Part shown: one piece after another, positions 824 to 60,453 of the stretch
Position numbering within the stretch: the stretch's first letter is position 1
Layout: each line of letters begins with the position of its first letter
Assembly (NCBI RefSeq): GCF_025602895.1
Contig: NW_026516206.1
Span: forward strand, 1,157,193 to 1,221,192
Direction of reading: 5' to 3'
DNA: 64,000 bases
DNA from: Polychytrium aggregatum
Taxonomy: Eukaryota > Chytridiomycota > Chytridiomycetes > Polychytriales
Notes under the pieces: model-generated
What the model saw: only the letters and a program-made list of their open reading frames with translations
What the model was told of the DNA's origin: nothing
Database searches by the model: none
Program-made: the position numbers and the translations under genes

Positions 824-825
824 TA

Positions 826-851
826 CAGGCAATCCAATAAAAAACGGGACA
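826..851 (+). repeat. Left terminal inverted repeat, copy 1
   Basis: Begins CAGGCAATCC and ends AAAAACGGGACA. It pairs imperfectly with the right end (4536-4562 reversed) over the A-run and CGGGACA. An AATAAA hexamer lies inside it at 836-841. Confidence 0.8.
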
Positions 852-909
852 CCCGGGTTTTTGACCATTCATCGAATATTTTGTTACCCAATGTTATCGC
901 GCGCTGGCC

Positions 910-1755
910 ATGACCATTCGCCACACATCCGACTTTCGCACCGCCGCATTGCGATGCTACGCCCTCATCCATAGCCTGCGTAAGGTCGCCTCCATATTCA
1001 GTGTATCCAAGAGCACCATCCATCGATGGCACCGAGGATGCAAGCTGGATGACCCATCCCGGGTCCCAGCTCGCAGATCCACTTTCTTCGAGCAGGCATG
1101 TCCAGTCATTCGCACCCTGATTGAACAGGACCCGTTCCAGACTGGTCCTGTGTTGCGATGCAAGCTCGAGTCCATCCTCCAGAGGAAAGTATCACTCTCA
1201 CTCTGCCACACTGCCATCCACCGAGCAGGTCTCTCACACAAGAGGGCAACACACCTCTACAAGTCCAAGCGACTGGATGAGCGGGTGGCACAGTTCAGGG
1301 ACCGGGTCCGCTCCATCGACCCGCGATTCGTTTTTGTCGATGAGACGGGGATCAGGAGATCCATTTTCCCTCTCTACGGATACTCACCGAAGGGTGCTCC
1401 GCTTCGCCAGCGCAATCACATGAAACACAAGTCTGTCTCGGCTGCATTTGCCATCAACCACTCTGGTGTGCTGCATCGCATGTACATCCCCACATCATTC
1501 AAGACACACTCGATGGTCGAGTTCTTTGATCGAGCGACCTTCCCAGACGACTCTGTGATTGTGATGGACAATGTCAGCATGCACAAGACAATGGCTGTCC
1601 TGGACTGCATCGAGCGCCGAGGATGGTCAGTGATCTTCACCCCACCTGCCTCGCCCGACTTCAATCCCATCGAAAACTTCTTTGGAATTGTGAAGCGTCA
1701 ATACAGGAAGATGGCAGCGCTGAATGCGTCCGAGGGTTCAGAGTCGGGATGGTGA
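910..1755 (+). CDS. IS630/Tc1-mariner-like DDE transposase, C-terminus frameshifted
   Basis: This is the probable transposase for the element, cutting and joining at TA targets. The N-terminal ~60 residues hold a helix-turn-helix (LRKVASIFSVSKSTIHRWHR) that would bind the terminal repeats. The catalytic triad is visible as D in FVFVDETG, D in VIVMDNVSMH and E in SPDFNPIENFFG, the usual Tc1/IS630 context. The frame stops at 1753-1755 after SEGSESGW. A second frame continues VGMVTLFESAVRRVLPDVF to a stop at about 1838, so the last ~28 residues have been lost to a frameshift. Relative to copy 2, one Arg codon is missing just before FVFVDE. Start chosen at the first ATG, which is shared with copy 2. 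Activity is uncertain. Confidence 0.85.
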   Translation: MTIRHTSDFRTAALRCYALIHSLRKVASIFSVSKSTIHRWHRGCKLDDPSRVPARRSTFFEQACPVIRTLIEQDPFQTGPVLRCKLESILQRKVSLSLCHTAIHRAGLSHKRATHLYKSKRLDERVAQFRDRVRSIDPRFVFVDETGIRRSIFPLYGYSPKGAPLRQRNHMKHKSVSAAFAINHSGVLHRMYIPTSFKTHSMVEFFDRATFPDDSVIVMDNVSMHKTMAVLDCIERRGWSVIFTPPASPDFNPIENFFGIVKRQYRKMAALNASEGSESGW

Positions 1756-2090
1756 CCCTGTTTGAGTCTGCCGTGCGGAGGGTGCTTCCAGATGTCTTCC
1801 CACGGCTGATTGAGCGAGCGATGCGCTTCTGGGGTTGAGTTCCCTCCAATCAAGCCGCCATTTTCGCGTTCACATCCCTGGCTTGAACCTCTCGGCGATT
1901 TTTGAACAGGTCGCTTCCCCAACCAGCCCGCGCAGACGGGTTCCTGCTCTCGGGTATAAATGCCACACCTTCGTCCTGCTACTTTCTTCCCTCATCCTCG
2001 CCTTGATCTGATCATCGCGCCATTGTACGATAAAGAGAAGTCTCTGCTCTGACCAGTACCACTGGCAGGCATCCAGCATCCTCTGCCCCC
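1756..2090 (+). other. Spacer between transposase and Fanzor, with Fanzor promoter
   Basis: The first ~80 bases encode the out-of-frame transposase tail. The rest is non-coding 5' sequence of the Fanzor gene, conserved in copy 2, with a TATA box at 1955-1960. Confidence 0.6.
1955..1960 (+). promoter_or_regulatory. TATA box of Fanzor copy 1
   Basis: GGGTATAAATGCC, 131 bp upstream of the Fanzor ATG; the same motif is conserved at 46319-46324 in copy 2. It implies a promoter separate from that of the transposase. Confidence 0.55.
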
Positions 2091-4463
2091 ATGCCTCCGA
2101 AGCGTAAGGGTGCCGGTGATGGCCAGCCTCGGCCACCCAGGCCCAAGAAAGCCAAGTCACAGTCGGAGCCTGTCTCTGGTTCGTATTCTGATCCCACGCA
2201 TACTTGTTCGTCTGTTGCTCCGTCGCTCACCACCACTGCTTCTGCAGATCCAATGGATGTCGATCCCACCGAGCCTGGTCCATCTACTTCCTCGAGTACT
2301 GGCAAGCGATGTCGCCAGTGCGATGGCACCGATCACGAACGTTGCAACACCAGCAAATGTCCCAAATACCGGCCCCTCAAGAGTTCTGTCGTCCCTCTCG
2401 TGGATGGAAGGTCATCGGCCCCTCAATACAGCTGCTTCAAGCAGACGATGGATGGCTGTTGTCTCAATCCCGCTCTCCGCGACAAGATCCAGGCCACCGT
2501 CGAGGCCATGACCCAGATCCAGTTCGAGGCATCCAGGCTGCTCAACCTGCACATCCTCCGGTGCATCGAGCAGGATCTTCCCGTCCCCGTCATCTCCAAG
2601 TCCACCCCTGCTTTCGTTCGCCAATGCTTCACGATTGTCGAGGCCGGTGCCCTCTCGCCGACCGGGGACAATGAGAAATACAACGAGCATCTGGTCGCTT
2701 CCTTTCGCGACTACCAGACCACTCGGCACGCAGACCTGCCTCCGGCCCCTCGTCTGCCTGATGGTGCCCGCAGTCAGCTTCTCACTCTCGCTGTCAATGC
2801 CTATGCCACCAACTGCACCACCCACCTCAACCTGGCCTACTGGCGACTCCTTCGTCGCTTCTGCGCTGCCGTCTTCCCAGCCAACAAGCATAAGCACGAA
2901 GCCATCGAGGTCTGTCTCGAGCTCTTCGAGAAACCAGGGCAGACTCCACCCAAGGCCGATCTCGAGTTCCTCTATCCAGACTTTGGCCACGTCCTGGACG
3001 AGTTTCGGTACAGCAACGACCAGGACCGCTTCCGGGCCCTCCATCGCCTCTCACACCATGTGAGAATCCTCGCCCGAGACAAGATGGTCGACAATGTCCA
3101 CAAGTGGATCGACTGTGACATGCCCGCCCTCCGAGTCACCGAGCTGCAGCGCCAGGCCAAGCTGGACGAGCTCACTGCCCAAGGCATTCCCTCCGACGAC
3201 AAGAGGCTCACCACGGCCAAGTCGGAGCTCGGCACCACCAAGTCCAAGATCAACAAGCTGGCCGCCAGGATCAACTGGGCCCTCAAGCAGCTCGCCGTCG
3301 ACACTCCTCCGGCCGTGTGCCCGATAGTTCCTCTCTGTATTGCAAGGGCCAAGTATGTCAAGATTGACACGGTCACTCTCTGGGAACTCCTGGGTCCAAA
3401 GAAGCGCCTTGGACTCACCAGGGACATGCTCAAGGAAGAAGGTGAGGACGGTGTCAACAACCAGGATCGTCTCTGGCGCAGTTGCTTCAAGCTGCGTAGT
3501 TCCCTCTTCCAAGAGCGGGTCAGGGACAAGAAGCTGTTCAACTACGAGATCAGCACCGATGGCATTGGATGCACCATCGGCCTCGTCAAGTTTGTGCCTC
3601 GAACCGATCACACCGAGACCATCGAGCCTCCTCCGACTGCCGAGCAGCGTATCCAGGCCCACATCGGTGACCCAGACCCCGATCGCACCACTTGGATTGG
3701 CATCGATCCTGGAGTCGGCTCCATCTTCACGGCGGTCATCCAAGCACCGGGCCACCAAGACGAGGTGGTCTCATTCTCCAATGCCCACTACCAGCACATG
3801 TGTGGCCATACGTCCAACACCAAGTGGCACAACACCATGAAGTATCGACTCAGCATCGAGACCTGGATGTCGACCACCCCCTCGCCCAAGGTGTCGTCCT
3901 CGGAGGCCTTCCTTGTCCATCTCACCCATGTCCTGCGACCGGAGCTGCGAGTGCAGCTCGACTTCCACCTTGGCAAGAAGGCCCGTCACCATCGCTTCAC
4001 GGGCCACAAGAGGCGCCAAGTGGCCGTCGACAGGATGTGCAAGGCCGTCCTGAAGCACGCCCCGATACGGACCGATGTGGTGATCGCCTTTGGCAATGCG
4101 TCATGGCGTCAAGGCAAGGGCTATGCATCCAGCCCTCGGAGGCAGCGGTTTGCTCGGTACTTTGAGCAGTTCGAGCACCACCGTTGCCGGCCCAATCACC
4201 ATCATGGAAGCATCAAGGTGGCCTCGACGAACGAGTTCAACACCTCGCAAGTGTGCTCCAAGTGCCTGGAGCCAGTTCGGTTGGAAGGACTCGATGCGTC
4301 CAGTGTTGCGAATTCCCACTTTGTCAGGAGCTGCAAGAATCCCAGCTGCCGGACAGTGTGGAATCGCGACGTCAATGCGGCGCGCAACATGATCACAGTA
4401 TGCAGGTCGATTGTGGAGATCGGAGAGCGACCGGTGGTCTTCACTCGGAGGCTGCCAAAGTGA
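2091..4463 (+). CDS. Fz: Fanzor (eukaryotic TnpB-like RNA-guided nuclease), copy 1
   Basis: A 790-residue intronless ORF. The N-terminal ~70 residues are basic then Pro/Ser-rich. A small zinc-binding motif follows, with C74, C77, H82 and C90. The C-terminal third is a TnpB/Fanzor RuvC fold: RuvC-I D539 in WIGIDPGVGS, a zinc ribbon with C722, C725, C748 and C753, and RuvC-III D760 in NRDVNAARNM. The canonical RuvC-II glutamate position reads VVIAFGNAS (A666). E715 in NEFNTSQVC, just before the ribbon, is the likely substitute, as reported for Fanzor proteins with a rearranged active site. Family members use an RNA from the element's 3' end to guide DNA cleavage. Start is fixed by agreement with copy 2. 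The ORF is intact although the linked transposase is broken. The family call is secure; activity is inferred. Confidence 0.92.
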   Translation: MPPKRKGAGDGQPRPPRPKKAKSQSEPVSGSYSDPTHTCSSVAPSLTTTASADPMDVDPTEPGPSTSSSTGKRCRQCDGTDHERCNTSKCPKYRPLKSSVVPLVDGRSSAPQYSCFKQTMDGCCLNPALRDKIQATVEAMTQIQFEASRLLNLHILRCIEQDLPVPVISKSTPAFVRQCFTIVEAGALSPTGDNEKYNEHLVASFRDYQTTRHADLPPAPRLPDGARSQLLTLAVNAYATNCTTHLNLAYWRLLRRFCAAVFPANKHKHEAIEVCLELFEKPGQTPPKADLEFLYPDFGHVLDEFRYSNDQDRFRALHRLSHHVRILARDKMVDNVHKWIDCDMPALRVTELQRQAKLDELTAQGIPSDDKRLTTAKSELGTTKSKINKLAARINWALKQLAVDTPPAVCPIVPLCIARAKYVKIDTVTLWELLGPKKRLGLTRDMLKEEGEDGVNNQDRLWRSCFKLRSSLFQERVRDKKLFNYEISTDGIGCTIGLVKFVPRTDHTETIEPPPTAEQRIQAHIGDPDPDRTTWIGIDPGVGSIFTAVIQAPGHQDEVVSFSNAHYQHMCGHTSNTKWHNTMKYRLSIETWMSTTPSPKVSSSEAFLVHLTHVLRPELRVQLDFHLGKKARHHRFTGHKRRQVAVDRMCKAVLKHAPIRTDVVIAFGNASWRQGKGYASSPRRQRFARYFEQFEHHRCRPNHHHGSIKVASTNEFNTSQVCSKCLEPVRLEGLDASSVANSHFVRSCKNPSCRTVWNRDVNAARNMITVCRSIVEIGERPVVFTRRLPK

Positions 4464-4562
4464 TCTGTTTTATTTCTTGTGGCTTTGCTTGACGCGAGCA
4501 CAGCACATACTACATGTTCATGGAAACGGCTATATTGTCCCGTTTTTTTTCTGAATAAAGTG
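4464..4562 (+). ncRNA. Candidate Fanzor guide RNA (omega RNA) scaffold region, copy 1
   Basis: The 99 bases between the Fanzor stop and the right terminus differ from copy 2 by only one substitution and one T in a T-run. Fanzor and TnpB guide RNAs are known to span the 3' end of the ORF or UTR and run out of the element, so the flanking host DNA supplies the guide. Here the guide would start at TACAATCGACTTGCC. No stable hairpin is obvious by eye, and the 5' boundary is unknown and may lie inside the ORF. Confidence 0.4.
4536..4562 (+). repeat. Right terminal inverted repeat, copy 1
   Basis: TGTCCCG followed by a T-run and ending AATAAAGTG. Reversed, it begins CACTTTATTC and shares AAAAAACGGGACA with the left end. 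AATAAA at 4554-4559 could act as a polyadenylation signal for the Fanzor mRNA. Confidence 0.75.
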
Positions 4563-4750
4563 TACAATCGACTTGCCATCACGACTCGATCGTTGCGTTC
4601 ACGCTGTTCCTGTCCTGTGCGGCGTGGCTCGCTTCAGTTCGTGGCTTTGCCGCTGGCCGGGTTCCGATCCGCTTTGCTCTTCGTCCTCCTTCGTCGACGG
4701 TCTCGCATCCGTCGTTATCGATCTCCACTCCGTCGACATTATTATGCACC

Positions 4751-45101: not shown

Positions 45102-45292
45102 GATGTTGGCTCGTGTCCGTGTGTCTTGGATGTGGTTGTCGATAGGCTCGAAATCCACACGATGCGTTGGCGGACGAAGGTGCGGTGATATCGAAACACT
45201 CCCATTTGGATCAACCGGAATGTGAAGGGCATTTCATACCGGCGACTGTGATTCAGGGATGGTCCGTGCCTGGCCCGGTCGCCCACAGCTTA
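45102..45292. promoter_or_regulatory. Residual promoter of the receptor gene
   Basis: 191 bases between the receptor start codon and the left end of transposon copy 2 (TA at 45291-45292). Any promoter elements further upstream are now 3.6 kb away. Confidence 0.4.
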
Positions 45293-45318
45293 CAGGCAAT
45301 CCAATAAAAAACGGGACA
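45293..45318 (+). repeat. Left terminal inverted repeat, copy 2
   Basis: Identical to the left end of copy 1 (CAGGCAATCC to CGGGACA). Confidence 0.8.
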
Positions 45319-45376
45319 CCCGGGTTTTTGACCATTCATCGAATATTTTGTTACCCAATGTTATCGCGCGCTGGCC

Positions 45377-46183
45377 ATGACCATTCGCCACACATCCGAC
45401 TTTCGCACCGCCGCATTGCGATGCTACGCCCTCATCCATAGCCTGCGTAAGGTCGCCTCCATATTCAGTGTATCCAAGAGCACCATCCATCGATGGCACC
45501 GAGGATGCAAGCTGGATGACCCATCCCGGGTCCCAGCTCGCAGATCCACTTTCTTCGAGCAGGCATGTCCAGTCATTCGCACCCTGATTGAACAGGACCC
45601 GTTCCAGACTGGTCCTGTGTTGCGATGCAAGCTCGAGTCCATCCTCCAGAGGAAAGTATCACTCTCACTCTGCCACACTGCCATCCACCGAGCAGGTCTC
45701 TCTCACAAGAGGGCAACACACCTCTACAAGTTCAAGCGACTGGATGAGCGAGTGGCACAGTTCAGGGACCAGGCCCGCTCCATTGACCCACGACGATTCG
45801 TCTTTGTCGATGAGACGGGGATCAGGAGATCCATTTTCCCTCTCTACGGGTACTCACCGAAGGGTGCTCCGCTTCGCCAGCGCAATCACATGAAACACAA
45901 GTCTGTCTCGGCTGCATTTGCCATCAACCACTCTGGTGTGCTGCATCGCATGTACATCCCCACATCATTCAAGACACACTCGATGGTCGAGTTCTTTGAG
46001 CGAGCGAGCTTCCCAGACGACTCTGTGATTGTGATGGACAATGTCAGCATGCACAAGACAATGGCTGTCCTGGACTGCATCGATCGCCGAGGATGGTCAG
46101 TGATCTTCACCCCACCTGCTTCACCCGACTTCAATCCCATCGAGAACTTCTTTGGGGTTGAGTCCCCACCGATTTGGGGTTGA
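45377..46183 (+). CDS. IS630/Tc1-mariner-like DDE transposase, C-terminally truncated
   Basis: 268 residues, almost identical to copy 1 up to NPIENFFG, with the helix-turn-helix and all three DDE acidic residues present (FVFVDETG, VIVMDNVSMH, NPIENFFG). After that it reads VESPPIWG and stops. The ~55 C-terminal residues inferred from copy 1 are deleted and replaced by a GGGGTTGAG-type tandem repeat. It keeps the extra Arg before FVFVDE that copy 1 lacks. Probably defective. Confidence 0.85.
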   Translation: MTIRHTSDFRTAALRCYALIHSLRKVASIFSVSKSTIHRWHRGCKLDDPSRVPARRSTFFEQACPVIRTLIEQDPFQTGPVLRCKLESILQRKVSLSLCHTAIHRAGLSHKRATHLYKFKRLDERVAQFRDQARSIDPRRFVFVDETGIRRSIFPLYGYSPKGAPLRQRNHMKHKSVSAAFAINHSGVLHRMYIPTSFKTHSMVEFFERASFPDDSVIVMDNVSMHKTMAVLDCIDRRGWSVIFTPPASPDFNPIENFFGVESPPIWG

Positions 46184-46215
46184 GTTCCTCCAATTTGGGG
46201 TTTAGTCCCCCAATC
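46150..46215 (+). repeat. Three tandem ~23-bp repeats at transposase deletion site
   Basis: Units of the form TTTGGGGTTGAGTYCC occur three times, where copy 1 has a single CTGGGGTTGAGTTCCC. Confidence 0.8.
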
Positions 46216-46318
46216 ACGCCGCCATTCTCACGTTCACATCCCTGGCTTGAACCTCTCGGCGATTTTTGAACAGGGTCGCTTCCCAACCAGCCCGCAAAGA
46301 CGGGCTCCTGCTCTCGGG

Positions 46319-46324
46319 TATAAA
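46319..46324 (+). promoter_or_regulatory. TATA box of Fanzor copy 2
   Basis: GGGTATAAATGCC, ~128 bp before the Fanzor ATG, matching the one in copy 1. Confidence 0.55.
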
Positions 46325-46451
46325 TGCCACACCTTCGTCCTGCTGCTTTCTTCCCTCATCTCGCCTTGATCTGATCATCGCGCTATTGTACGATAAAAAA
46401 GTCTCTGCTCTGACCAGTACCACTGGCAGGCACCCAGCATCCTCTGCCCCC

Positions 46452-48824
46452 ATGCCTCCGAAGCGCAAGGGTACCGGTGATGGCCAGCCTCGGCCACCCA
46501 GGCCCAAGAAAGCCAAGTCACAGTCGGAGCCTGTCTCTGGTTCGTATTCTGATCCCACGCATGCTTGTTCGTCTGTTGCTCCGTCGCTCACCACCACTGC
46601 TTCTGCAGATCCAATGGATGTCGATCCCACCGAGCCTGGTCCATCTACTTCCTCGAGTACCGGCAAGCGATGTCCCAAGTGCGATGGCACCGATCACGAA
46701 CGTTGCAACACCAACAAGTGTCCAAAATATCACCCCCTCAAGAGTTCTGTCGTCCCACTCGTGGATGGAAGGTCATCCGCCCCTCAATACAGCTGCTTCA
46801 AGCAGACGATGGATGGCTGTTGTCTCAATCCCGCTCTCCGCGACAAGATCCAGGCCACCGTCGAGGCCATGACCCAGATCCAGTTCGAGGCATCCAGGCT
46901 GCTCAACCTGCACATCCTCCGGTGCATCGAGCAGGATCTTCCCGTCCCCGTCATCTCCAAGTCCACCCCTGCTTTCGTTCGCCAATGCTTCAAGATCGTC
47001 CAGGCCGATGCCCTCTCCCCGACCGGGGACAATGAGAAATACAACGAGCATCTGGTCGCTTCCTTTGGCGACTACCAGACCACTCGGCACGCAGACCTGC
47101 CTCCGGCCCCTCGTCTGCCTGATGGTGCTCACAGTCAGCTTCTCACACTGGCTGTCAATGCCTATGCTACCAACTGCACCACCCACCTCGACCTGGCCTA
47201 CTGGCGACTCCTTCGCCGCTTCTGTGCTGCTGTCTTCCCAGCCAACAAGCACAAGCACGAAGCCATCGAGGCCTGTCTCGAGCTCTTCGAGAAACCAGGG
47301 CAGACTCCACCCAAGGCCGATCTCGAGTTCCTCTATCCCGAGTTTGGCCACATCCTGGACGAGTTTCGGTACAGCAACGACCAGGACCGCTTCCGGGCCC
47401 TCCATCGCCTCTCACACCATGTGAGAATCCTCGCCCGAGACAAGATGGTCGACGATGTCCACAAGTGGATCGACTGTGACATGCCCGCCCTCCGAGTCAC
47501 CGAGCTGCAGCGCCAGGCCAAGCTGGACGAGCTCACTGCCCGAGGCATTCCCTCCGACGACAAGAGGTTCACCAAGGCCAAGTCTGAGCTCGGCACCACC
47601 AAGTCCAAGATCAACAGGCTGGCATCCAGACTCAAGTGGGCCCTCAAGCAGCTCGCTCTTGACACTCCTCCGGCCGTGTGCACGATGGTTCCTCTATGCA
47701 CTGCAAGGGCCAAGTATGTCAAGATTGACACGGTCACTCTTTGGAATCTCCTTGGTCCAAAGAAGCGCCTTGACCTCACCAGGGACAAGCTCAAGGAAGA
47801 AGGTGAGGACGGTGTCAACAACCAGGATCGTCTCTGGCGCAGTTGCTTCAAGCTGCGTAGCTCCCTCTTCCGTGACCGGGATATCAATCACAAGCTGTTC
47901 AACTACGAGATCAGCACCGATGGCATTGGATGCACCATCGGTCTCGTCAAGTTTCTGCCTCGAACCGATCACACCGAGACCATCGAGCCTCCTCCGACTG
48001 CCGAGCAGCGCATCCAGGCCCACATCGGTGACCCAGACCCCAACCGCACCACTTGGATTGGCATCGATCCTGGAGTCGGCTCCATCTTCACGGCGGTCAT
48101 CCAAGCACCGGGCCACCAAGACGAGGTGGTCTCGTTCTCCAATGGCCACTACCAGCACATGTGTGGCCATACGTCCAACACCAAGTGGCACAATATCATG
48201 AAGTATCGACTCAGCATCGAGACCTGGATGTCGACCACCCCCTCGCCCAAGGTGTCGTCCTCGGAGGCTTTCAAGGTCCATCTCACCCATGTCCTGCGAC
48301 CGGAGCTGCGAGTGCAGCTCGACTTCCACCTTGGCAAGAAGTCTCGCCACCATCGCTTCACGGGCCACAAGAGGCGCCAAGTGGCCGTCGACAGGATGTG
48401 CAAGGCCGTCCTGAAGCACGCCCCGATACGGACCGATGTGGTGATCGCCTTTGGCAATGCGTCATGGCGGCAAGGCAAGGGCTATGCATCCAGCCCTCGG
48501 AGGCAGCGGTTTGCTCGGTACTTTGAGCAATTCGAGCACCACCGACGCCGGCCCAATCACCCTCATGGAAGCGTCAAGGTAGTCTCGACGAACGAGTTCA
48601 ACACCTCGCCGATGTGCTCCAAGTGCCTGGAGCCAGTTCGGTTGGAAGGACTCGATGCGCCCAGTGTTGCGAATTCCCACTTTGTCAGGAGCTGCAAGAA
48701 TCCCAGCTGCCGGACAGTGTGGAATCGCGACGTCAATGCGGCGCGCAACATGATCACAGTGTGCAGGTCGATTGTGGAGACCGGAGGGCGACCGGTGGTC
48801 TTCACTCGGAGGCTGCCAAAGTGA
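46452..48824 (+). CDS. Fz: Fanzor (eukaryotic TnpB-like RNA-guided nuclease), copy 2
   Basis: 790 residues, the same length as copy 1 with about 50 substitutions and no indels. The open frame extends upstream to 46266, but the start is placed at MPPKRKG to match copy 1, where the upstream frame is closed. The N-terminal zinc motif (CPKCDGTDHERC), RuvC-I D (GIDPGVGS), C-terminal zinc ribbon (CSKC, CKNPSC) and RuvC-III D (NRDVNAARNM) are all kept, as is VVIAFGNAS at the canonical RuvC-II position and E in NEFNTSPMC. Most substitutions lie in the middle, between residues ~190 and 500. It differs from copy 1 at the two residues preceding the zinc ribbon (PM for QV). Confidence 0.92.
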   Translation: MPPKRKGTGDGQPRPPRPKKAKSQSEPVSGSYSDPTHACSSVAPSLTTTASADPMDVDPTEPGPSTSSSTGKRCPKCDGTDHERCNTNKCPKYHPLKSSVVPLVDGRSSAPQYSCFKQTMDGCCLNPALRDKIQATVEAMTQIQFEASRLLNLHILRCIEQDLPVPVISKSTPAFVRQCFKIVQADALSPTGDNEKYNEHLVASFGDYQTTRHADLPPAPRLPDGAHSQLLTLAVNAYATNCTTHLDLAYWRLLRRFCAAVFPANKHKHEAIEACLELFEKPGQTPPKADLEFLYPEFGHILDEFRYSNDQDRFRALHRLSHHVRILARDKMVDDVHKWIDCDMPALRVTELQRQAKLDELTARGIPSDDKRFTKAKSELGTTKSKINRLASRLKWALKQLALDTPPAVCTMVPLCTARAKYVKIDTVTLWNLLGPKKRLDLTRDKLKEEGEDGVNNQDRLWRSCFKLRSSLFRDRDINHKLFNYEISTDGIGCTIGLVKFLPRTDHTETIEPPPTAEQRIQAHIGDPDPNRTTWIGIDPGVGSIFTAVIQAPGHQDEVVSFSNGHYQHMCGHTSNTKWHNIMKYRLSIETWMSTTPSPKVSSSEAFKVHLTHVLRPELRVQLDFHLGKKSRHHRFTGHKRRQVAVDRMCKAVLKHAPIRTDVVIAFGNASWRQGKGYASSPRRQRFARYFEQFEHHRRRPNHPHGSVKVVSTNEFNTSPMCSKCLEPVRLEGLDAPSVANSHFVRSCKNPSCRTVWNRDVNAARNMITVCRSIVETGGRPVVFTRRLPK

Positions 48825-48922
48825 TCTGTTTTATTTCTTGTGGCTTTGCTTGACGCGAGCACATCACATACTACATGTTCATGGAAACGGCTATATTGTC
48901 CCGTTTTTTTCTGAATAAAGTG
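48825..48922 (+). ncRNA. Candidate Fanzor guide RNA (omega RNA) scaffold region, copy 2
   Basis: 98 bases from the stop to the right end, differing from copy 1 by one base and one T. Read-through into the flank would give a guide beginning TACATTGGATCAGGG, different from that of copy 1. Confidence 0.4.
48897..48922 (+). repeat. Right terminal inverted repeat, copy 2
   Basis: TGTCCCG, T-run, then CTGAATAAAGTG, as in copy 1 with one T fewer. Confidence 0.75.
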
Positions 48923-49584: not shown

Positions 49585-50003
49585 TGTGAGGAGTGAACAA
49601 GCGCAAGGACGAAGACCAAGTGCTTGGTATGAGCTTTATTAGCTTTTAGCCCCGAACACCAAAGAACAAGTTTTGTTCGAACTGGTGTTCAACATAGGCT
49701 CAGACATGCAGGGCTATTTATAGACCGGGAGAAGGTCGAGGGGCAAAAGTGGGCGAGAAGGGTGGAGCATCACAGAGAAGCGAGAAGGGGGTGCGAGAGT
49801 GGCTGGTGTGCAAGCGAGAGAGGCTTGGCACAGCCCGGGGACATGTGCCGAGCGGTGGGGGAGGCAGGAAACCAGTAGACGCGGGTGGCAACGGCGCGTG
49901 CTCATGCATGGGGGCAAACAAACACGTGGGGACTCATGATTGGTGCGGAGGGAGAGAGCATGCGGGACAATCTCATTGGTCCGTTGTGATGCTGGTCATC
50001 ACA
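49585..50003 (-). repeat. 3' LTR of the Ty3 element
   Basis: On the minus strand it runs TGTGATGACC to CTCCTCACA. It contains a TATA box (49722-49717) and an AATAAAGCTC polyadenylation-like hexamer. Confidence 0.93.
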
Positions 50004-50016
50004 CTATCTCCTCCTT
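50004..50016 (-). other. Polypurine tract of the Ty3 element
   Basis: AAGGAGGAGATAG directly before the 3' LTR; primes plus-strand DNA synthesis. Its last three bases are the pol stop codon. Confidence 0.75.
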
Positions 50017-53000
50017 AAACTACGGCGTGTTCCATCTTGAGTTCTCCTGGGGCCAGGCTTGTCTGGGTAGCGTCGGTGGTACTCCGCGGCCACCGTTGGG
50101 GCAAAGACAATGTCGGCGGGCTCCCAACTTCGATCGGTGACCGGGTAGCCTTTCCAATCGATGAGATAGTGCAGCTTTCCGCGCACGAACTTGGAGTCTA
50201 AGATCTCTTCGACCTCCCACTCCAAGTTCCCATCGATGACCACCGCAGGGGGCGGCGCTTGCACCCGACCCGGAAGCGAGTTCTTCTTGTAGGGCTCAAG
50301 AAGAGACACATGGAACACCGGGTGCACCTTTATGTCCTTTGGCAAGTCCAGGCGGAAAGCCAATGTCCCGACGGCCTCGAGGATGGTGAATGGTCCAATC
50401 CTCTGGTAATCCAGCTTCTTGCTTGGGCGAGTGGTGCTGATGTTACGAGTCAGCACCCAGACTTGATCGCCCGGACGCAAGTCGGGAGCCTGGGACCTCC
50501 GGAGATCTGAGAAGTGCTTGTAGTCAGACTTTGCCTTCTCAAGATTCTCCTTCAACAGTGCCAGGTTCCGCTGGAGATGTTCAACCCTCTCCGTGGCAGA
50601 GGGAACATCAGGGCCGCCAGCGATAACGGGGACTTCGAACCTTGGGTGGAACCCATAGGTTGCCAAGAATGGCGAGGCATGTGTTGACGAGTTCTCGAGG
50701 TTATTGTAAGAGAACTCGGCCAACGGCAGCAGCTCGGCCCAGTCATCTTGCTGATACGACGTGTAACAGCGCAGGTATTGGTTGATGACCTGGTTGACCC
50801 TCTCAGTCTGTCCATCGGTCTGGGGATGGAAGGCCGTGGACAGACTGGTTTGGATCCCGAGCTGCGTGCAGAGTGCCTTCCAGAACCGAGAGGTGAACTG
50901 ACTTCCTCGGTCTGAAACCACTGTGTCGGGGAGGCCATGGAGACGAAAGACATTGTCGAGGAACAGTGACGCAGTCTCCTCCGCCGACGGCAGTGAACGC
51001 CAGGACATAAAGTGTGCCATCTTTGTGAGGCTGCATACCACCACAAAGATGCAGGTGTGACCCTTGGACTTTGGCAGATCAGTGATAAAGTCCATGGTCA
51101 GTGTCCCCCAGGGTCGATCGGCTGTCTGGAGTGGCAACAGGAACCCAAACGGCTTGTGTCGCGGAGCTTTCGAGCGTGCACAGGTGTCGCACGTCGAGAC
51201 GTACTCTTTGACATCTTTCCGATAGGTTTGCCACCAAAACTGTCGCGATACCAGAGCCAGAGTCCGTCGGATGCCTGGATGACCCACAGCGACTGGGTCA
51301 TGGCACGACTTGAGCGCCGGAACTCGGCACGACTCTGGGACCACAATCCTGTTCTGGAAGGTGAGGTACTGGCCATTCCAGACGAACTTCGGGTCACGAC
51401 GGTATTTGTCTAGACCGGGATCCCGAGCCTGCTCTTCGGCTATGAGCTGCAGCAAGTCCACAGGGTCACTGCGACTTGCAACCGAAGAGCGGGCGTCTCT
51501 GCTTCGGAGCACGCGTATCACCGCGGCAGGATCGAGAAGCAGAGGCGGATCCCTCGACACGGAGGCCGACGAAGGGATGTAGTCCGAGCGACGAGACAGG
51601 GCATCGGCCTTGCCGTTCCTCGCACCAGGACGGTACTGGATGCGGATGTCGAACCGAGACAAGAACTGGGACCACCGTGCATGGCGCTGGTTTAGGATGC
51701 GAGCCGTCGCCAGGTACTCCAAGTTCTTGTGGTCGGTCAGAACGGCAACGGGATGCTGGGCGCCTTCGAGGTAGTGTCGCCACGCCTCGAAAGCCTCCTT
51801 GATCGCCAACAGCTCTTTCTCGTATATGCTGTAGTTACGTTCAGCATTCGAGAGTGTCCGCGAATGGAACGAGCAAGGATGAAGGCGATCATCAGCACCC
51901 CGCTGGGAGAGCACGCATCCAAGCGCAAAGTCCGACGCATCTGACTCTACGACGAACGGCTTGGATGGGTCCGGATGCACCAGAACGGGCTCCGAAACGA
52001 AGGCATCCTTCAAGGATCTGAATGCTTTATCGGCTTCGCGGGACCACTGGAAGCCATGCGTCTTCCGGAAGAGCCGAGTCATGGGCCCCGCGATCTTTGC
52101 GTATCCATCGATGAAGCGTCGATAGAAGTTCGCAAACCCGACAAAGGATCGAAGATCCGAGATGTTGCGCGGTATGGGCCAATCCAAGATCGCAGAGAGC
52201 TTGGATCGCTCCATACCGATGCCCTCGGGCGAGACCATGAAACCAAGGAACGAGACCGAGGTTTTGGAGAACTCGCACTTCTCCAGCTTGCAATACAGCT
52301 TTGCAGCTCGGAGCTTCGAGAGGACCTGCTTGACGTGCTCTACATGCTGCGACGGATCAGCACTGTAGATCAAGATATCGTCAAGATACGCAATTGCGAA
52401 CTGGTCCAACTCGGTGCGCAGGACGTCGTTGATGAAGTGCTGGAACGTCGCTGGCGCGTTGGTGAGCCCAAAGGGCATCACCAAGTACTCGAAGTGCCCA
52501 TATCGAGTACGGAAAGCTGTCTTCCACTCGTCCCCGGAGCGGATGCGCAGCAGATTGTAGGCTCCACGAAGGTCCAGCTTAGTGAACACCTTCGCGCCTC
52601 GAAGTCGGTCCAGCAGCTCGCCGATCAGCGGTAAAGGGTAACGGTTCTTTACCGTGATACCGTTCAGTGCGCGGTAGTCAACGCAAAGACGAAGTGAGCC
52701 GTCCTTCTTCTTGACGAAGAGGATTGGTGAGCCTGCTGGGGACGACGAAGGACGAACGAATCCCTTGGCAAGATTCTCGTCGAGATAGTCACGCAGAGCG
52801 TGAAGTTCGGGCTCGGACAGTGAGTACAGAGGCCCGAACTTTGGCGACTTGCCCGGCTCCAAGTCAATGGGGCAGTCATAAGGGCGATGCGGAGGCAAGG
52901 AGTCAGCTTCCTGTTTAGAGAAAACAGACAGGAAGTCCTTGTACTCCGCAGGCACTTCGACAGTCGCAGTGCTCGGCTCGTCAGTGGGCAGGACATGGAC

Positions 53001-54089
53001 CTGAAAGATGGTCAGGGGTTGCGTTCCATGCCTGCATGCATCCAAAGACTCGCGCATCGAGCGGTAATCAATGCTGCAGACGCGGAGAGGAGCGTCCGAG
53101 CTGAGAGGAGGGGCGTGGACAAGGTCAGAATAATGTTCGACGGTTACTTTATTCTGAACAATGTCCGAAGAACAAACAACAGGAGGAGGTACATCAAGGA
53201 GGGAAAGAGAACTGACAACAGAAGAAGGGGTTTGGGAAGAGCGAAGGGGTTCGGGAGGAACAAGACAAGAAGGGGAAGACGAAGGTGGGAGCGTAGGAGA
53301 GGAGCTTAGATCAATCAAAGGAGTGGAATCATCAAGAAGGGGAGTGACATTGGAGGAAGTGGAGCAAGACGAAAGAGAAGTAGTGCATGGAGAGGGGTCG
53401 GAATCAACAGAAGGAGGGAGACAAAGAAGACCGCGAGACCAGACAATCTTGGGCTCGGCGGTGCGCAACCAAGGAAAGCCAAGGATAAGTGGTTGATGTG
53501 GAGACCTGATCACATCGAACCGAAGGCGTTGCGAGACGTCCCCGAGAATCACCTCGAGTGGAGCAGTCTCGCGGAGGATGGGGCCAGACGACAGCGGCTT
53601 ACCATCCACGCCTTCCACTGCCAAGGGCGAAGCCTTGGAGCAGGTGGGGACAGAGTGTCGAGCAACAAAGTCCTCGTCGATAAAGTTGCCAGAGGCACCA
53701 GAATCGACAAGTCCTTCGCACGACAGAGAATCACCAGAAGGAAGACGAACAGCGACGGGAACAACCAACGAGCAACGACGAACAGACGAAACACAAGACT
53801 TTGGTTCGGTACCAGCTTCGGCACCAGGGTTGCGGCTAGCACAGACAGTTAACTTTGCCGAGGGTTGGCAGGACAGCTCAGGTATTTGCACCTGTGGATG
53901 AGGTGCAGTTCCCAGTGACACCAGAGGTGCCACGGGTACTATGCCAGAGCTGAGAGTGTCCGCCGGTCCAGAGGCAAGGCGAAGCTGTCCGCACATCACT
54001 GCTTCCCCAGTACTTACCAAAGGCACCTTACCAATGTCTTCACTTTCGGAAGGCGGTGGGCACGGCTCCGGTTCAAGGCCTTCACTTAG
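50004..54089 (-). CDS. Pol polyprotein with chromodomain (Ty3 element)
   Basis: The pol frame is open from the gag end to 50004 without interruption, over 1340 residues. Protease active site LVDSGASGNF (D about residue 108, counted from 54026); reverse transcriptase VDYRALNGITVKNRYPLP and YLDDILIYS (~547); RNase H DASDFALGCVLSQ; integrase zinc region (HPGIRRTLALVSRQFWWQTY, CDTCARSK); DDE residues in TMDFITDLP, VVSDRGSQFTS and HPQTDGQTERVN; and a C-terminal chromodomain (LEWEVEEILDSKF, LIDWKGYPVTDRSWEP), which targets integration to marked chromatin. It has no start codon of its own near the gag end and lies in the -1 frame relative to gag, so expression by ribosomal frameshifting is likely. 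All hallmark residues are present. Confidence 0.93.
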   Translation of the reverse strand, partial: LSEGLEPEPCPPPSESEDIGKVPLVSTGEAVMCGQLRLASGPADTLSSGIVPVAPLVSLGTAPHPQVQIPELSCQPSAKLTVCASRNPGAEAGTEPKSCVSSVRRCSLVVPVAVRLPSGDSLSCEGLVDSGASGNFIDEDFVARHSVPTCSKASPLAVEGVDGKPLSSGPILRETAPLEVILGDVSQRLRFDVIRSPHQPLILGFPWLRTAEPKIVWSRGLLCLPPSVDSDPSPCTTSLSSCSTSSNVTPLLDDSTPLIDLSSSPTLPPSSSPSCLVPPEPLRSSQTPSSVVSSLSLLDVPPPVVCSSDIVQNKVTVEHYSDLVHAPPLSSDAPLRVCSIDYRSMRESLDACRHGTQPLTIFQVHVLPTDEPSTATVEVPAEYKDFLSVFSKQEADSLPPHRPYDCPIDLEPGKSPKFGPLYSLSEPELHALRDYLDENLAKGFVRPSSSPAGSPILFVKKKDGSLRLCVDYRALNGITVKNRYPLPLIGELLDRLRGAKVFTKLDLRGAYNLLRIRSGDEWKTAFRTRYGHFEYLVMPFGLTNAPATFQHFINDVLRTELDQFAIAYLDDILIYSADPSQHVEHVKQVLSKLRAAKLYCKLEKCEFSKTSVSFLGFMVSPEGIGMERSKLSAILDWPIPRNISDLRSFVGFANFYRRFIDGYAKIAGPMTRLFRKTHGFQWSREADKAFRSLKDAFVSEPVLVHPDPSKPFVVESDASDFALGCVLSQRGADDRLHPCSFHSRTLSNAERNYSIYEKELLAIKEAFEAWRHYLEGAQHPVAVLTDHKNLEYLATARILNQRHARWSQFLSRFDIRIQYRPGARNGKADALSRRSDYIPSSASVSRDPPLLLDPAAVIRVLRSRDARSSVASRSDPVDLLQLIAEEQARDPGLDKYRRDPKFVWNGQYLTFQNRIVVPESCRVPALKSCHDPVAVGHPGIRRTLALVSRQFWWQTYRKDVKEYVSTCDTCARSKAPRHKPFGFLLPLQTADRPWGTLTMDFITDLPKSKGHTCIFVVVCSLTKMAHFMSWRSLPSAEETASLFLDNVFRLHGLPDTVVSDRGSQFTSRFWKALCTQLGIQTSLSTAFHPQTDGQTERVNQVINQYLRCYTSYQQDDWAELLPLAEFSYNNLENSSTHASPFLATYGFHPRFEVPVIAGGPDVPSATERVEHLQRNLALLKENLEKAKSDYKHFSDLRRSQAPDLRPGDQVWVLTRNISTTRPSKKLDYQRIGPFTILEAVGTLAFRLDLPKDIKVHPVFHVSLLEPYKKNSLPGRVQAPPPAVVIDGNLEWEVEEILDSKFVRGKLHYLIDWKGYPVTDRSWEPADIVFAPTVAAEYHRRYPDKPGPRRTQDGTRRSLRRR

Positions 54090-55063
54090 AACCGGGCCTG
54101 GTCGTTTCCCGAACTGAAGTCTTGCACTTCTCCATCTTCGTAAACGATGGTGCGGATGATCCTCGGGCCGGGAGGTCCAGGGGGCGGTCCGGTAGCTCTG
54201 GTAGATCCAAACTTGACGGGGCAGTTTCGTACCAAGTGGCCCTTCTTGCCACAGTACAGGCAGAGTCCAAAGCGGCGGCGGCGTTGTTTCTCCTCGGCGG
54301 TCAGGGGTCCAGAGACGGCAGAGTCCACTTGCATGGGCTCGGAAACAATGTAGGAGGGGTGCGGCGGAGCGAGGACGGGCGCGGGAGCGATGGCGGGAAC
54401 GGCAGCGGAGGCGGAACCAAAGGCGAACTGGGAAGACCGGTAGCGGGCAGGCGTGCTTCGGCGCTCTTGACGGCGCTCGCGGATTCGTGCATCGAGCTCG
54501 TTACAAAGCTCGATGTACTCCTCCAGATCTCGTGGCAGAGGGCGAACTCGCGAAAGTTCGTCTCTGACATCATCCGACAAGCCAAGTCGGAAGAACGAGA
54601 TCTTTGCACCGTCGTTCCAAGTCGTATCGGCGGCAATACGAAGGAACTCGGATGCATAGACTGCGCACGGGCGGTTGCCCTGAGACAGTGTGGTGATCAC
54701 TGACTCGGCAGTCCTGGCCCGATCAGGGTCGTCAAACACTTTGGAAAAGCGTTCTAGGAAATCGCCAAAAGAGTTGAGTCGGGGATCACCCATCTCAAGC
54801 ATCGGAGTCGCCCACTGGAGAGCCGGTCCAGTGAGCAGACTAATGACGAATCCGACCTTAATCGGGTCAGCAGGGAACCGGTGGGGCTGCATTCGTATAT
54901 ACAGTTTGCACTGATTTACGAATGCCCGGAACCCTTGCCGGTTACCGTCGTAACGGTCCGGCATCTGCACGCTGTACCCAGCGGCAGGAGCATCGCGAGC
55001 TGTCCGGAGCTCGGCGAGCTCGGCCTCCAAGGCACGGAGGCGGTCCACGAGGGCAGGATCCAT
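54086..55063 (-). CDS. Gag of the Ty3 element
   Basis: 325 residues starting MDPALVDRLRALEAELAEL. A retrotransposon Gag/capsid domain (FRAFVNQCKLYIRMQPHRF; TGPALQWATPMLE; FERFSKVF-like helices) is followed by a CCHC zinc knuckle, CLYCGKKGHLVRNC, for RNA binding. The frame is open back into the LTR, but this ATG is the first giving a typical Gag N-terminus. It ends GNDQARF, overlapping the pol frame by a few codons. Confidence 0.9.
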   Translation of the reverse strand: MDPALVDRLRALEAELAELRTARDAPAAGYSVQMPDRYDGNRQGFRAFVNQCKLYIRMQPHRFPADPIKVGFVISLLTGPALQWATPMLEMGDPRLNSFGDFLERFSKVFDDPDRARTAESVITTLSQGNRPCAVYASEFLRIAADTTWNDGAKISFFRLGLSDDVRDELSRVRPLPRDLEEYIELCNELDARIRERRQERRSTPARYRSSQFAFGSASAAVPAIAPAPVLAPPHPSYIVSEPMQVDSAVSGPLTAEEKQRRRRFGLCLYCGKKGHLVRNCPVKFGSTRATGPPPGPPGPRIIRTIVYEDGEVQDFSSGNDQARF

Positions 55064-55226
55064 GGCGGGACTGGGACTGGGACTGGGAAAAAAAAAAAAG
55101 CGAGGAGGTTCAAGAACAGGAGAGCGAAGAGGGCTCAGACACAAGTGTGCTTGAGGTTCGGACAGGACTAGGAAAGGGGCGGGGCTAGGAGCGGAAGATA
55201 CCAAGCAGGTGGTATCAGTAGAAGAG

Positions 55227-55238
55227 AGTTCGAACAAA
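55227..55238 (-). other. Putative self-priming primer-binding site
   Basis: Minus strand TTTGTTCGAACT, one base after the 5' LTR. It has no TGG for a tRNA 3' end. It is perfectly complementary to AGTTCGAACAAA in the LTR (minus strand from 55338), ~39 bases after the start of the TATA box, where transcription would begin. Confidence 0.55.
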
Positions 55239-55239
55239 G

Positions 55240-55658
55240 TGTAAGGAGTGAACAAGCGCAAGGACGAAGACCAAGTGCTTGGTATGAGCTTTATTAGCTT
55301 TTAGCCCCGAACACCAAAGAACAAGTTTTGTTCGAACTGGTGTTCAACATAGGCTCAGACATGCAGGGCTATTTATAGACCGGGAGAAGGTCGAGGGGCA
55401 AAAGTGGGCGAGAAGGGTGGAGCATCACAGAGAAGCGAGAAGGGGGTGCGAGAGTGGCTGGTGTGCAAGCGAGAGAGGCTTGGCACAGCCCGGGGACATG
55501 TGCCGAGCGGTGGGGGAGGCAGGAAACCAGTAGACGCGGGTGGCAACGGCGCGTGCTCATGCATGGGGGCAAACAAACACGTGGGGACTCATGATTGGTG
55601 CGGAGGGCGAGAGCATGCGGGACAATCTCATTGGTCCGTTGTGATGCTGGTCATCACA
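55240..55658 (-). repeat. 5' LTR of the Ty3 element
   Basis: Same 419 bp as the other LTR, with G/A and A/C differences. TATA box on the minus strand at 55377-55372 (CTATAAATAG). Confidence 0.93.
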
Positions 55659-55753: not shown

Positions 55754-58700
55754 TTTTTTTTTTTTTTGTTACTATAGTCAACTTTATTCAAGAAGACAAG
55801 CCATCAGGTCCAACAGGTTGGTACCCCGGCACGTTGAGTACACAGGCAAGCCTATTTACTCCTGTTGCAGCCTAGTGCTGCCTCAGCTGCCCACAAGGTC
55901 TGAGACCAAGCGGGTGAACACATTTTCGAGCAGTTCCCACAAGGGAACAGCAGGATCGAGGGGGGGTCGGGGTGGAGGAATGACAAGTGCTGACACTATA
56001 CTACGCTGTGATGAGGGTGCAGGGAGAGACTGCAAGGGTGGGACTACACTGGGTGTGGGAGTGGGTGGTGGTGCTGGGTGTGCACCAAGTGCGAATGCTC
56101 GGAAGGCAGTGCGGGGAGCGGGTACATGAGCAGCAAGTGATCCAAGTGCGGGAGGGGTGCGACTGCGAGGGGGAGTGCGATCGAAACTGAGCAGGTCCAG
56201 CAGCTTGTCCACTGGTCCCACTCCGGCTATACCACTTTCCACCCAAGTCGGGTGGGCCGTCTTGAGGGCTGCGACCTTGCGGACCAGGACTTGATGCGGA
56301 TCCACACACTGCTGTGCGTGGGTCCTGGTCAAGTCGATCCCGGATCCGTGTCGAGCCAGGTTCTTGCACTTGCGGTAGCCAAATCTGAAGTGGCCTGGGA
56401 GAGCACCGAGTCGCCATCGGACCATGAACATGAGCATGATCATGGATCCTTGGTACCCGCGAGCCTCCCAGAGTCCCGACATCTTGGTCGACGGGGTGCA
56501 GGCGGCGGTGAGCTGCTTGGAGCGGTCGAAGCCGTTCTTCATGTGGTCCTCGAAGATGAGGGTCTTGATCGGGACGGGCTGGGGTCGGGGCGGTCCGGGC
56601 GGCGGCGGCTGGTGTCGGGTCTTGCCTCGGTAGATCTCCGTGGCCGTGAGGGAGTGGTCGGCCTCTTGTCGGCGGACCACCATGGCCCAGTGCGGATCGG
56701 CTCGGACTCCTTGGCCGAGGAACTGGTCGGGGTGGTAGGGCGCAATGATCTTGTTGCGCAGGATCATCGACAGCATCTTGTCGCCGTCAGAGACTTGGTC
56801 GTCCCAGCGGGCCCAGTTCTGCAGGGCCAGCATCTTGACACGGACCGACATCTTGGGAAGGCCGCAGTTGAGGTGCATGGCACCGACGGGAGTGCCGGGG
56901 CCGACGCGGAACATGGTGCGGAGGGCCGTCATCTGGGCGTCGTCGAGGCGGTCGCGCAGAGCTGGGTCGGGGATGTCCATGGCCATCCCGTATTCGAGGG
57001 TCGGCCGCACAAAGGTCTTGTAGACCTGGGTGATGGTCTTGGCCGAGACCTTGCCGAGGGTGATGCCGAGTCCAACCACGGTGTCGGTGACCATGTGGAC
57101 CTTGCGGAGGAGCTTGTCGAACTGGAGGTCCGGGCGGAATCCGTCAATGTCGACCATGACACCGAGGTAGCGGAACTGGAGGACCTTGGGCAGCTCGGTG
57201 CCGTACAGCTTGGCGGGATGGAGCTGGTCGACGTTGCAGGCCGAGTACAGCACCTCGCACTTGGGAGGCGAGAAGCGGTACCGGTTGTCGATGCTGTGGC
57301 GTTCGCAGATATCCAGCATGGCCTGGGTGCGGCCAGCCGGACAGATGAGGACACCGTCATCGGCAAACCAGAGCGAGTTGACCCGGAGACGGTGGTGGCG
57401 ACTCGAGGCAAGCACAAGTCCGTCCTCGGCTCGGAGCAGTCCAGGCAGGTCGTCAATGTGGGCACTGAACAGAAGGGGACTCAGGACCGAGCCTTGGATG
57501 AGACCCTTCTGCAGCCACACAGGCTGCGACGTGCGGCCCTTGCTGGCGACGCGGACAAGAGTGCGGTCGAACATGGCCCTGAGGACCCCGACGGCGACCG
57601 GACCAGCACCTCGGGTGGCGATCTTGTCCCAGAGGCGCTCCCGCCAGACAGTGTCGTAGGCGGCCTTGATGTCGAGGAAGACCAGGCTGTACTCGTCGTC
57701 GCGGATCTTGTTCATGCGGACAAGAGCGTCGAGCGAGTACACCTGGTCGAGGGTGCCTCGGTCCGGGCGGAAGCCTCCCTGGGCAATGTCCATGATGCCG
57801 ATCTCGCGGGTGAGGAACGGCAGCAGGACTCGCTCGGCGATCTTGCGGAGGACCTGGGTCAACCCGATGGGCCGGTACATGGCCGGATCGAGGATCGAAC
57901 CCTTGTTCTTGTAGACCGGGTGGATCAGGACAGTGTTCCACTCGGTCGGGACGACGGAGGCCTTGAGGGCGGCCAGCAGGATGGCCCGGAGCCAGGGAGC
58001 GACCACGGGAGCGACAGGGTGCAGCATCTCGGCCTTGATCTTGTCCGGGCCGGAAGACTTGCGCTTGGGGGACTTGACGATGGCATCGGCCACCTCGTCC
58101 GACGACAATCGGGGAATGGAGCGGTCCTCGGGGAGCAGGCGCGGAACAGTGTCCAGGGGTCTTGGGCCGACGGTCCGGTCAAAGGCGGCACCGGGGGTGT
58201 CCTGGGAGTGCGAGGAGACCTTGCCGTAGTGGACCACAAGTCGCTCGAGGGCCTCGTCCGAGTTGTCAAAGTGGAAGGCGTCGTCGAGCTCCTTGCGCTT
58301 CTTCATGGCGGCCAGGGACTTGGCGACCTCGGAAGCGTTGAGGGAGTGCAGCTTGTTCATGGCCAGGGTCTCGGCTGCTCGGCGGGACTGGACGATGAGG
58401 TTCTTTTCTTGTTTGCGGACAGCGCGGAGTTCGGCGCGCTTGTCCTCGGCGACGCGGAGGGAGAGCCCGGGCAACTTGAGCTGGTAGATGAGATCGCGGC
58501 GCCTCTCGCGAAGCTGCCGCATCTCGGGGATCAGGGCCGGGTCCTTCCAGACGGTCTTGATGGAAGCCTTGCCGATGGTGGAGTCGGCAGCGGTGGTGAT
58601 CAGGGCGATCATGATGGACCAGGCGCGGTCGATGCAGTCCTGGGCCGCACTCTCCGAGATCGGAATGACCGATCCCCTTGAGATTGGCCGGAGTGCAGCC

Positions 58701-60438: not shown

Positions 60439-60453
60439 TCATCCCCTTCCTTA
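60439..60453 (-). other. Polypurine tract of second Ty3 element
   Basis: TAAGGAAGGGGATGA immediately before the LTR; it overlaps the pol stop codon (TAA at 60453-60451). Confidence 0.65.

Follow-up and report, generated by a model that had tools for sequence, protein, structure and literature searches.

The window analysed here is a 64,000-nucleotide stretch of the chytrid Polychytrium aggregatum (NW_026516206.1, positions 1,157,193 to 1,221,192), at the end of a 1.22-Mb contig within the 64.7-Mb assembly, whose size, chromodomain Ty3 elements and host genes fit a eukaryote. It carries two copies, A and B, of a transposable element that encodes a transposase and a Fanzor nuclease (Table 1). 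With copy A as a BLAST query, copy B was recovered as two matches, one of 863 nt at 98.0% identity and one of 2,734 nt at 95.5%. The element has the inverted ends and flanking TA of IS630/Tc1-mariner transposons. Among the copies read at both ends, TA was present at the left end in 34/34 and at the right end in 31/34. These results confirm that the two copies represent one IS630/Tc1-mariner-type element with base-exact ends at TA. An earlier sequence-only reading had claimed two complete copies in 64 kb with precise boundaries. The boundaries withstood mapping of the family by its termini, which gave at least 178 exact left ends genome-wide (allelic copies included) and 34 copies read at both ends, and the same TA boundaries recurred in the additional copies. 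Completeness held for the ends and for the nuclease gene but not for the transposase gene, which is full-length in neither window copy.

Table 1. Features of the two element copies, in window positions
Feature	Position	Strand	Description
Left TA, copy A	824..825	none	preceded by G (GTA); among the only 6 of 178 left junctions that are not TTA
Element, copy A	826..4562	+	3,737 bases, CAGG...GTG
Left end, copy A, inverted-repeat core AAAAAACGGGACA	826..853	+	from the sequence
Transposase open reading frame (ORF), copy A	910..1755	+	281 aa, IS630/DDE_3; C-terminal frameshift
Fanzor ORF, copy A	2091..4463	+	790 aa; D539-P-G, E715, C722/C725/C748/C753, R759-D760
Predicted guide-RNA (omega/reRNA) scaffold, copy A	4396..4562	+	final 67 bases of the Fanzor frame, then the 3' non-coding end; retained in ghosts
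Right end, copy A, inverted-repeat core + GTG	4536..4562	-	from the sequence
Right TA, copy A	4563..4564	none	from copy comparison
Predicted guide sequence, copy A	4565..4584	+	host flank; length assumed; inferred from the published Fanzor layout
Left TA, copy B	45291..45292	none	T in front (TTA, predicted target-adjacent motif, TAM)
Element, copy B	45293..48922	+	3,630 bases; same ends as copy A
Transposase ORF, copy B	45377..46183	+	268 aa; shortened by a loss of ~105 bases
Fanzor ORF, copy B	46452..48824	+	790 aa
Predicted guide-RNA scaffold, copy B	48757..48922	+	by homology to copy A

The first ORF encodes a DDE transposase of the IS630/Tc1-mariner type, as had been proposed. It scored 115.9 bits against NF033545, the NCBIfam model for IS630 transposases (cut-off 100), and 84.1 bits against PF13358. 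The damage to the gene in copy A consists of a 3-base loss and a 1-base frameshift. Elsewhere in the family, a transposase frame of at least 300 aa was found in 21 of 34 copies, 18 of them with 310 aa, and in 26 of 45 copies of a larger set. The ratio of non-synonymous to synonymous change (omega) for this gene was 0.27 over all variants and 0.52 over private variants.

The second ORF encodes the 790-residue protein that the sequence-only reading had called a TnpB-like Fanzor nuclease, and this assignment is supported by a Pfam zinc-ribbon family, matched in both copies, together with the published Fanzor fingerprint. Matches to PF07282 (36.5 and 34.6 bits, cut-off 26.3) revealed a C-terminal zinc ribbon of the TnpB/Cas12f type. 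PMC10711439 describes as a Fanzor signature a DPG at RuvC1 together with a glutamate located six residues ahead of the first CxxC; the copy A protein has DPG at 539-541 and E715 at that distance from C722-x-x-C725. It also matches the pattern given as a definition of Fanzors in PMC3627910, D-X(125,275)-[TS][TS]-xx-C4-X(5,50)-RD, through D539, T718-S719 and the cysteines and RD pair listed in Table 1. DPG was conserved in 39/39 long frames, ExxxxxxCxxC in 36/39 and CxxxxC-x5-RD in 38/39. The best match among solved structures was the Spizellomyces Fanzor 8gkh, at an E-value of 0.49 that is not significant and is no evidence alone. Length, host element and this best PDB match (E 0.49) point to a putative Fanzor1 rather than a Fanzor2. 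In the protein collection, 7,996 candidates were scored without yielding a homologue at E 0.001, and two scans of viral contigs returned no relatives.

To describe the family, the genome was searched at the DNA level, with the best 39 of 1,306 candidates scored, and at least 34 rows covered all or nearly all of the 3,737 bases. A protein search scored at least 57 Fanzor frames, 49 of the 57 without an internal stop. The Fanzor frame was at least 785 aa long in 30/34 copies and in 39/45 copies of the larger set, with almost no indels; five of the 34 copies (L029-L033) were drawn from the Fanzor-protein list and favour an intact Fanzor, and L042, whose extracted sequence lay to the wrong side of its site, was left out of all counts. 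Omega for the Fanzor gene was 0.41 over all variants and 0.54 over private variants. The family might be a dead relic with a decayed TnpB-like gene that no longer acts, and the transposase frames shorter than 300 aa (19/45 copies) and the median distance between copies of 3.7% fit such decay. We nevertheless regard this as very improbable, given the 39/45 copies with a long Fanzor frame and purifying selection even on single-copy variants (omega 0.52-0.54). The first four bases of the element were more variable than the rest (CAGG in 34 copies, CGGG in 5 and other forms in 6, of 45 copies). These variant forms are common to alleles and are perhaps footprints of cutting.

The left junctions carry a one-sided imprint. 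Genome-wide, T preceded the left TA at 172 of the 178 exact left ends and another base did so in 6, compared with T before TA at 207/1,526 places (13.6%) in the flank background, an odds ratio of ~183. At unique sites the count was 27/30. The mirror base, an A after the right TA, occurred at only 7/30 unique sites, so that no bias is seen on the right side. Transposition of the mariner type into TA is not expected to distinguish left from right. Since the imprint is one-sided, since a two-fold transposase should also give the mirror, and since the Spizellomyces Fanzor is reported to have the target motif CATA, with CA conserved ahead of the left end in its elements (PMC10432273), we read TTA as probably the imprint of the target motif of the nuclease, that is, as its predicted TAM. 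A G stood before the right TA, or before the mutated form of that TA, in 45/45 copies, so a filled site would offer no TTA beside its own guide. If TTA is the motif, the family thus shows the arrangement of TnpB-like site retention, in which an emptied site carries the motif and the right junction of a filled site does not.

Alternatively, TTA may be a target preference of the transposase, the Fanzor a passenger, and the allelic mosaics described below a product of excision-gap repair or of general repeat recombination. We consider this explanation unlikely, while giving it real weight. The right side, at 7/30, lacks the mirrored preference. In its favour, the transposase is also under selection (omega 0.27, all variants), and the TTA of the ghosts would be expected under this view as well as the other.

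Ghosts are short copies without ORFs. In a set of 21 selected for their similarity to the one next to L030, every ghost retained a 3' module and the left 98 bases of the element, the latter lacking two to seven bases in some cases. The module starts at element position 3574-3581 in 20/21, i.e. inside the nuclease gene; the match extends to at least 3724 in 13 ghosts and ends at ~3686-3694 in 8, where a different right end follows. Diversity among ghosts was lowest in the first 68 bases of the module, the former end of the Fanzor ORF (0.072 vs 0.10-0.15 in the left part). Their left junctions, read by eye, were TTA in 15/19 unique cases. The module has 28 predicted pairs, of which 3 were changed on both sides in 18 sequences, and its covariation score was matched by 2/500 shuffles. 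The module kept by the ghosts may be a guide-RNA scaffold, as predicted in Table 1. The idea that conservation within the family is far higher across the entire 3' end than anywhere else was weakened, since a ranking of 3,642 windows places the 98 bases of this end 265th.

No empty site was found for any of 30 sites when their joined flanks were searched (best 40 of 1,179 and best 40 of 266 candidates), a search in which an uninterrupted site would have ranked first. The few rows that crossed a junction came from the filled loci L017, L021 and L023 and a twin of L017; the right flank of L017 resembles the left end of the element. At 21/30 sites the same flank occurred at a second place, again broken at the junction, and we take this place to belong to the second haplotype; two contigs, C407 and C112, run parallel over ~70 kb. 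For the 13 sites read on two contigs, the flanks had 19 mismatches in 17,343 positions, compared with 1,017 in 48,124 for the elements. This flank total leaves out the right flank of L010/L019, which contains a Fanzor relic and differs at 18/610 positions, and does not count as mismatches the 37 bases by which the left flanks of L004 and L008 differ in length. The alleles of the element differed by 28 to 156 bases in 12/13 pairs, and the differences lay in tracts, only at ~530-1,600 in L022/L035 and only after 1,200 in L031/L037. In unconverted stretches, 12-16 site-specific variants were kept in both alleles, and private deletions distinguished the alleles. Ghost allelic pairs differed at 6/376, 1/380 and 1/255 positions, below the elements and above zero.

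Some tracts could be traced to other copies. L036 is identical to L018 over 747 bases, 116 kb away, which accounts for 33 of its differences from its allele. L025 is identical to L064, 36.6 kb away, over 1,620 bases and differs from it elsewhere; simple self-transposition was ruled out for this pair, as 69 alignment columns differ outside the shared tract. Linked copies had longer exact shared runs (849 non-allelic pairs, p 3e-5), and with three further copies, added because they are linked or allelic, there were 977 pairs, 41 of them linked, in which each of the top five shared tracts connects linked copies (permutation p 0.0002). L065, a truncated copy on the contig of the window, shares no long tract with its neighbours.

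The differences between matching contigs could instead be an assembly artefact, in which long-read correction mixed the reads of a ~180-copy repeat. In keeping with this, only interspersed element sequence is affected. Control repeats of similar divergence are lacking, the Ty3 and LINE (long interspersed nuclear element) copies being ~100% identical; a PF03184 search meant as a control returned nothing, and its own controls likewise gave no match. We think the artefact improbable, because several features of the copies run against it. The distance to the family majority was 2.41% for paired copies and 2.39% for other copies, which means that there is no drift to the consensus. Both alleles kept their site-specific variants in unconverted stretches, and private deletions differ between them. 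Moreover, the strongest tracts link copies 36-116 kb apart on the same chromosome, which read mixing would not favour, and the Fanzor frames are nearly free of indels.

Our working model, which we hold to be somewhat better than an even proposition on the sequence comparisons, is that this is a mariner-type (IS630) transposon whose Fanzor maintains occupied sites through RNA-guided cutting followed by copy-back repair. The transposase would insert the element at TA. An insertion could be defended if T precedes its left TA, since the site would read TTA followed by the guide once the element is lost or where an allele is empty. A guide RNA formed from the 3' end of the element and the host flank would direct the Fanzor, which would cut the emptied site or empty allele at TTA plus flank. 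Repair would then refill the site from the sister or the homologue, or often from another copy through template switching, and break repair with template switching would give rise to mosaics. Such cutting and refilling would result in fixed sites, intact Fanzor frames, the TTA imprint and mosaics. We infer TTA as the motif, transcription of the 3' module and its binding by Fanzor, breaks made by Fanzor, and template switching as the source of the mosaics.

The passenger explanation bears on several of these points. In cut-and-paste elements, repair of the gap that excision leaves is an established process, and it would also yield internal deletions and ghosts. On the other hand, Fanzor frames were broken in 4/34 copies and the 2.5x shorter transposase frames in 13/34, with 5/34 copies drawn from the Fanzor-protein list; that the Fanzor is broken less often than the shorter gene suggests that it is used in each copy. 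Several observations weigh against site retention by the Fanzor. Copy A itself sits at GTA rather than TTA. The folding of single 3' module sequences does not stand out from that of shuffles (z -0.33 to -1.46), the left end is at least as well conserved in ghosts as element positions 3643-3690, and the AlphaFold prediction for the Fanzor, made from 8 near-identical rows, was unusable (pLDDT 35.4). The copies are old enough that the missing empty alleles may mean little, and one of the 13 allelic pairs, L007/L034, differs by 1 base with no exchange. Finally, no copy that lacks the 3' module and was mobilized by the same transposase was found, which leaves room for a one-sided target preference of the transposase.

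More tentatively, with the odds a little against it, we suggest that the allelic mosaics could be a record of the Fanzor at work, in which TTA alleles that were emptied, or had never been filled, were cut under guidance of the flank and refilled from any reachable copy. If so, the family would never show an empty site and would be continually rewritten. The mosaics would then answer what Fanzors are for, with this genome as a natural experiment; the authors who first showed Fanzor activity called its biological role unknown (PMC10432273). The combination of transposase, nuclease, ghosts, TTA imprint and two-haplotype sites makes the question of Fanzor site retention directly testable.

Fanzors in mariner-like elements were described as known in the sequence-only reading, and indeed they have been in print since 2013 (PMC3627910). 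PGv-1 and PUl-1 (Bao and Jurka 2013, PMC3627910) likewise combine a mariner-type transposase and Fanzor1 with TA duplications, whereas a single copy carrying a third nuclease gene is described there for PGv-1 and the present element forms a large two-gene family. SPu-1/SpuFz1 of Spizellomyces punctatus (Saito 2023, PMC10432273) resembles the element in a nuclease of the Fanzor1 type flanked by inverted repeats at TA, in the conserved bases before the left TA, which in SPu-1 equal the target motif CATA, and in ORF-less ghosts that retain the 3' RNA region. The link between motif and flank was thus already published for SPu-1 (PMC10432273). As described in that report, SPu-1 lacks the internal transposase present here, and its motif is CATA and not the predicted TTA; our element further differs in the overlap of the predicted scaffold with the ORF end and in its allelic mosaics. 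The proposed function is likened to that of bacterial TnpB (IS200/IS605, IS607), for which RNA-guided cutting of emptied donor sites and repair that restores the element are described (PMC10711439, PMC10432273). Those elements have an HUH or serine recombinase according to the same sources, in contrast to the DDE transposase and the DPG and alternative-glutamate signature found here. KolobokP (Kojima and Bao 2022, PMC9587614) is also a DDE transposon with its own homing-type endonuclease, but this is described as a His-Me finger enzyme that is not RNA-guided, in an element with long terminal direct repeats. No published report of allelic mosaics in Fanzor elements was found in a search that left most subscription literature outside. 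New relative to what is known are the one-sided TTA imprint, the ghosts with the 3' module, and the filled-only sites with allelic mosaics, all of them seen beyond the window.

Insertions are clustered next to older relatives. At 8/30 unique sites (L004/L008, L009, L010/L019, L017, L023, L027, L030 and L031) a diverged Fanzor relic or ghost begins within ~155 bases of the junction. In positions 1-225 of the right flank of L017, a ghost that has lost its first bases adjoins the element, with the 11 bases TATTCTTCGCA on either side, and this ghost could be a repair product. No Fanzor relics or ghosts were found in the rest of the window.

The window also contains other mobile elements. A whole Ty3 chromodomain long terminal repeat (LTR) retrotransposon lies at 49585-55539 and has at least 16 copies at ~100% identity, and a second Ty3 integrase fragment with a chromodomain is located at 60451-61575. 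Between them, at 55883-59557, is a LINE with endonuclease and reverse transcriptase, which has at least 28 copies at 100% identity; many of these copies are close to contig ends and are perhaps subtelomeric.

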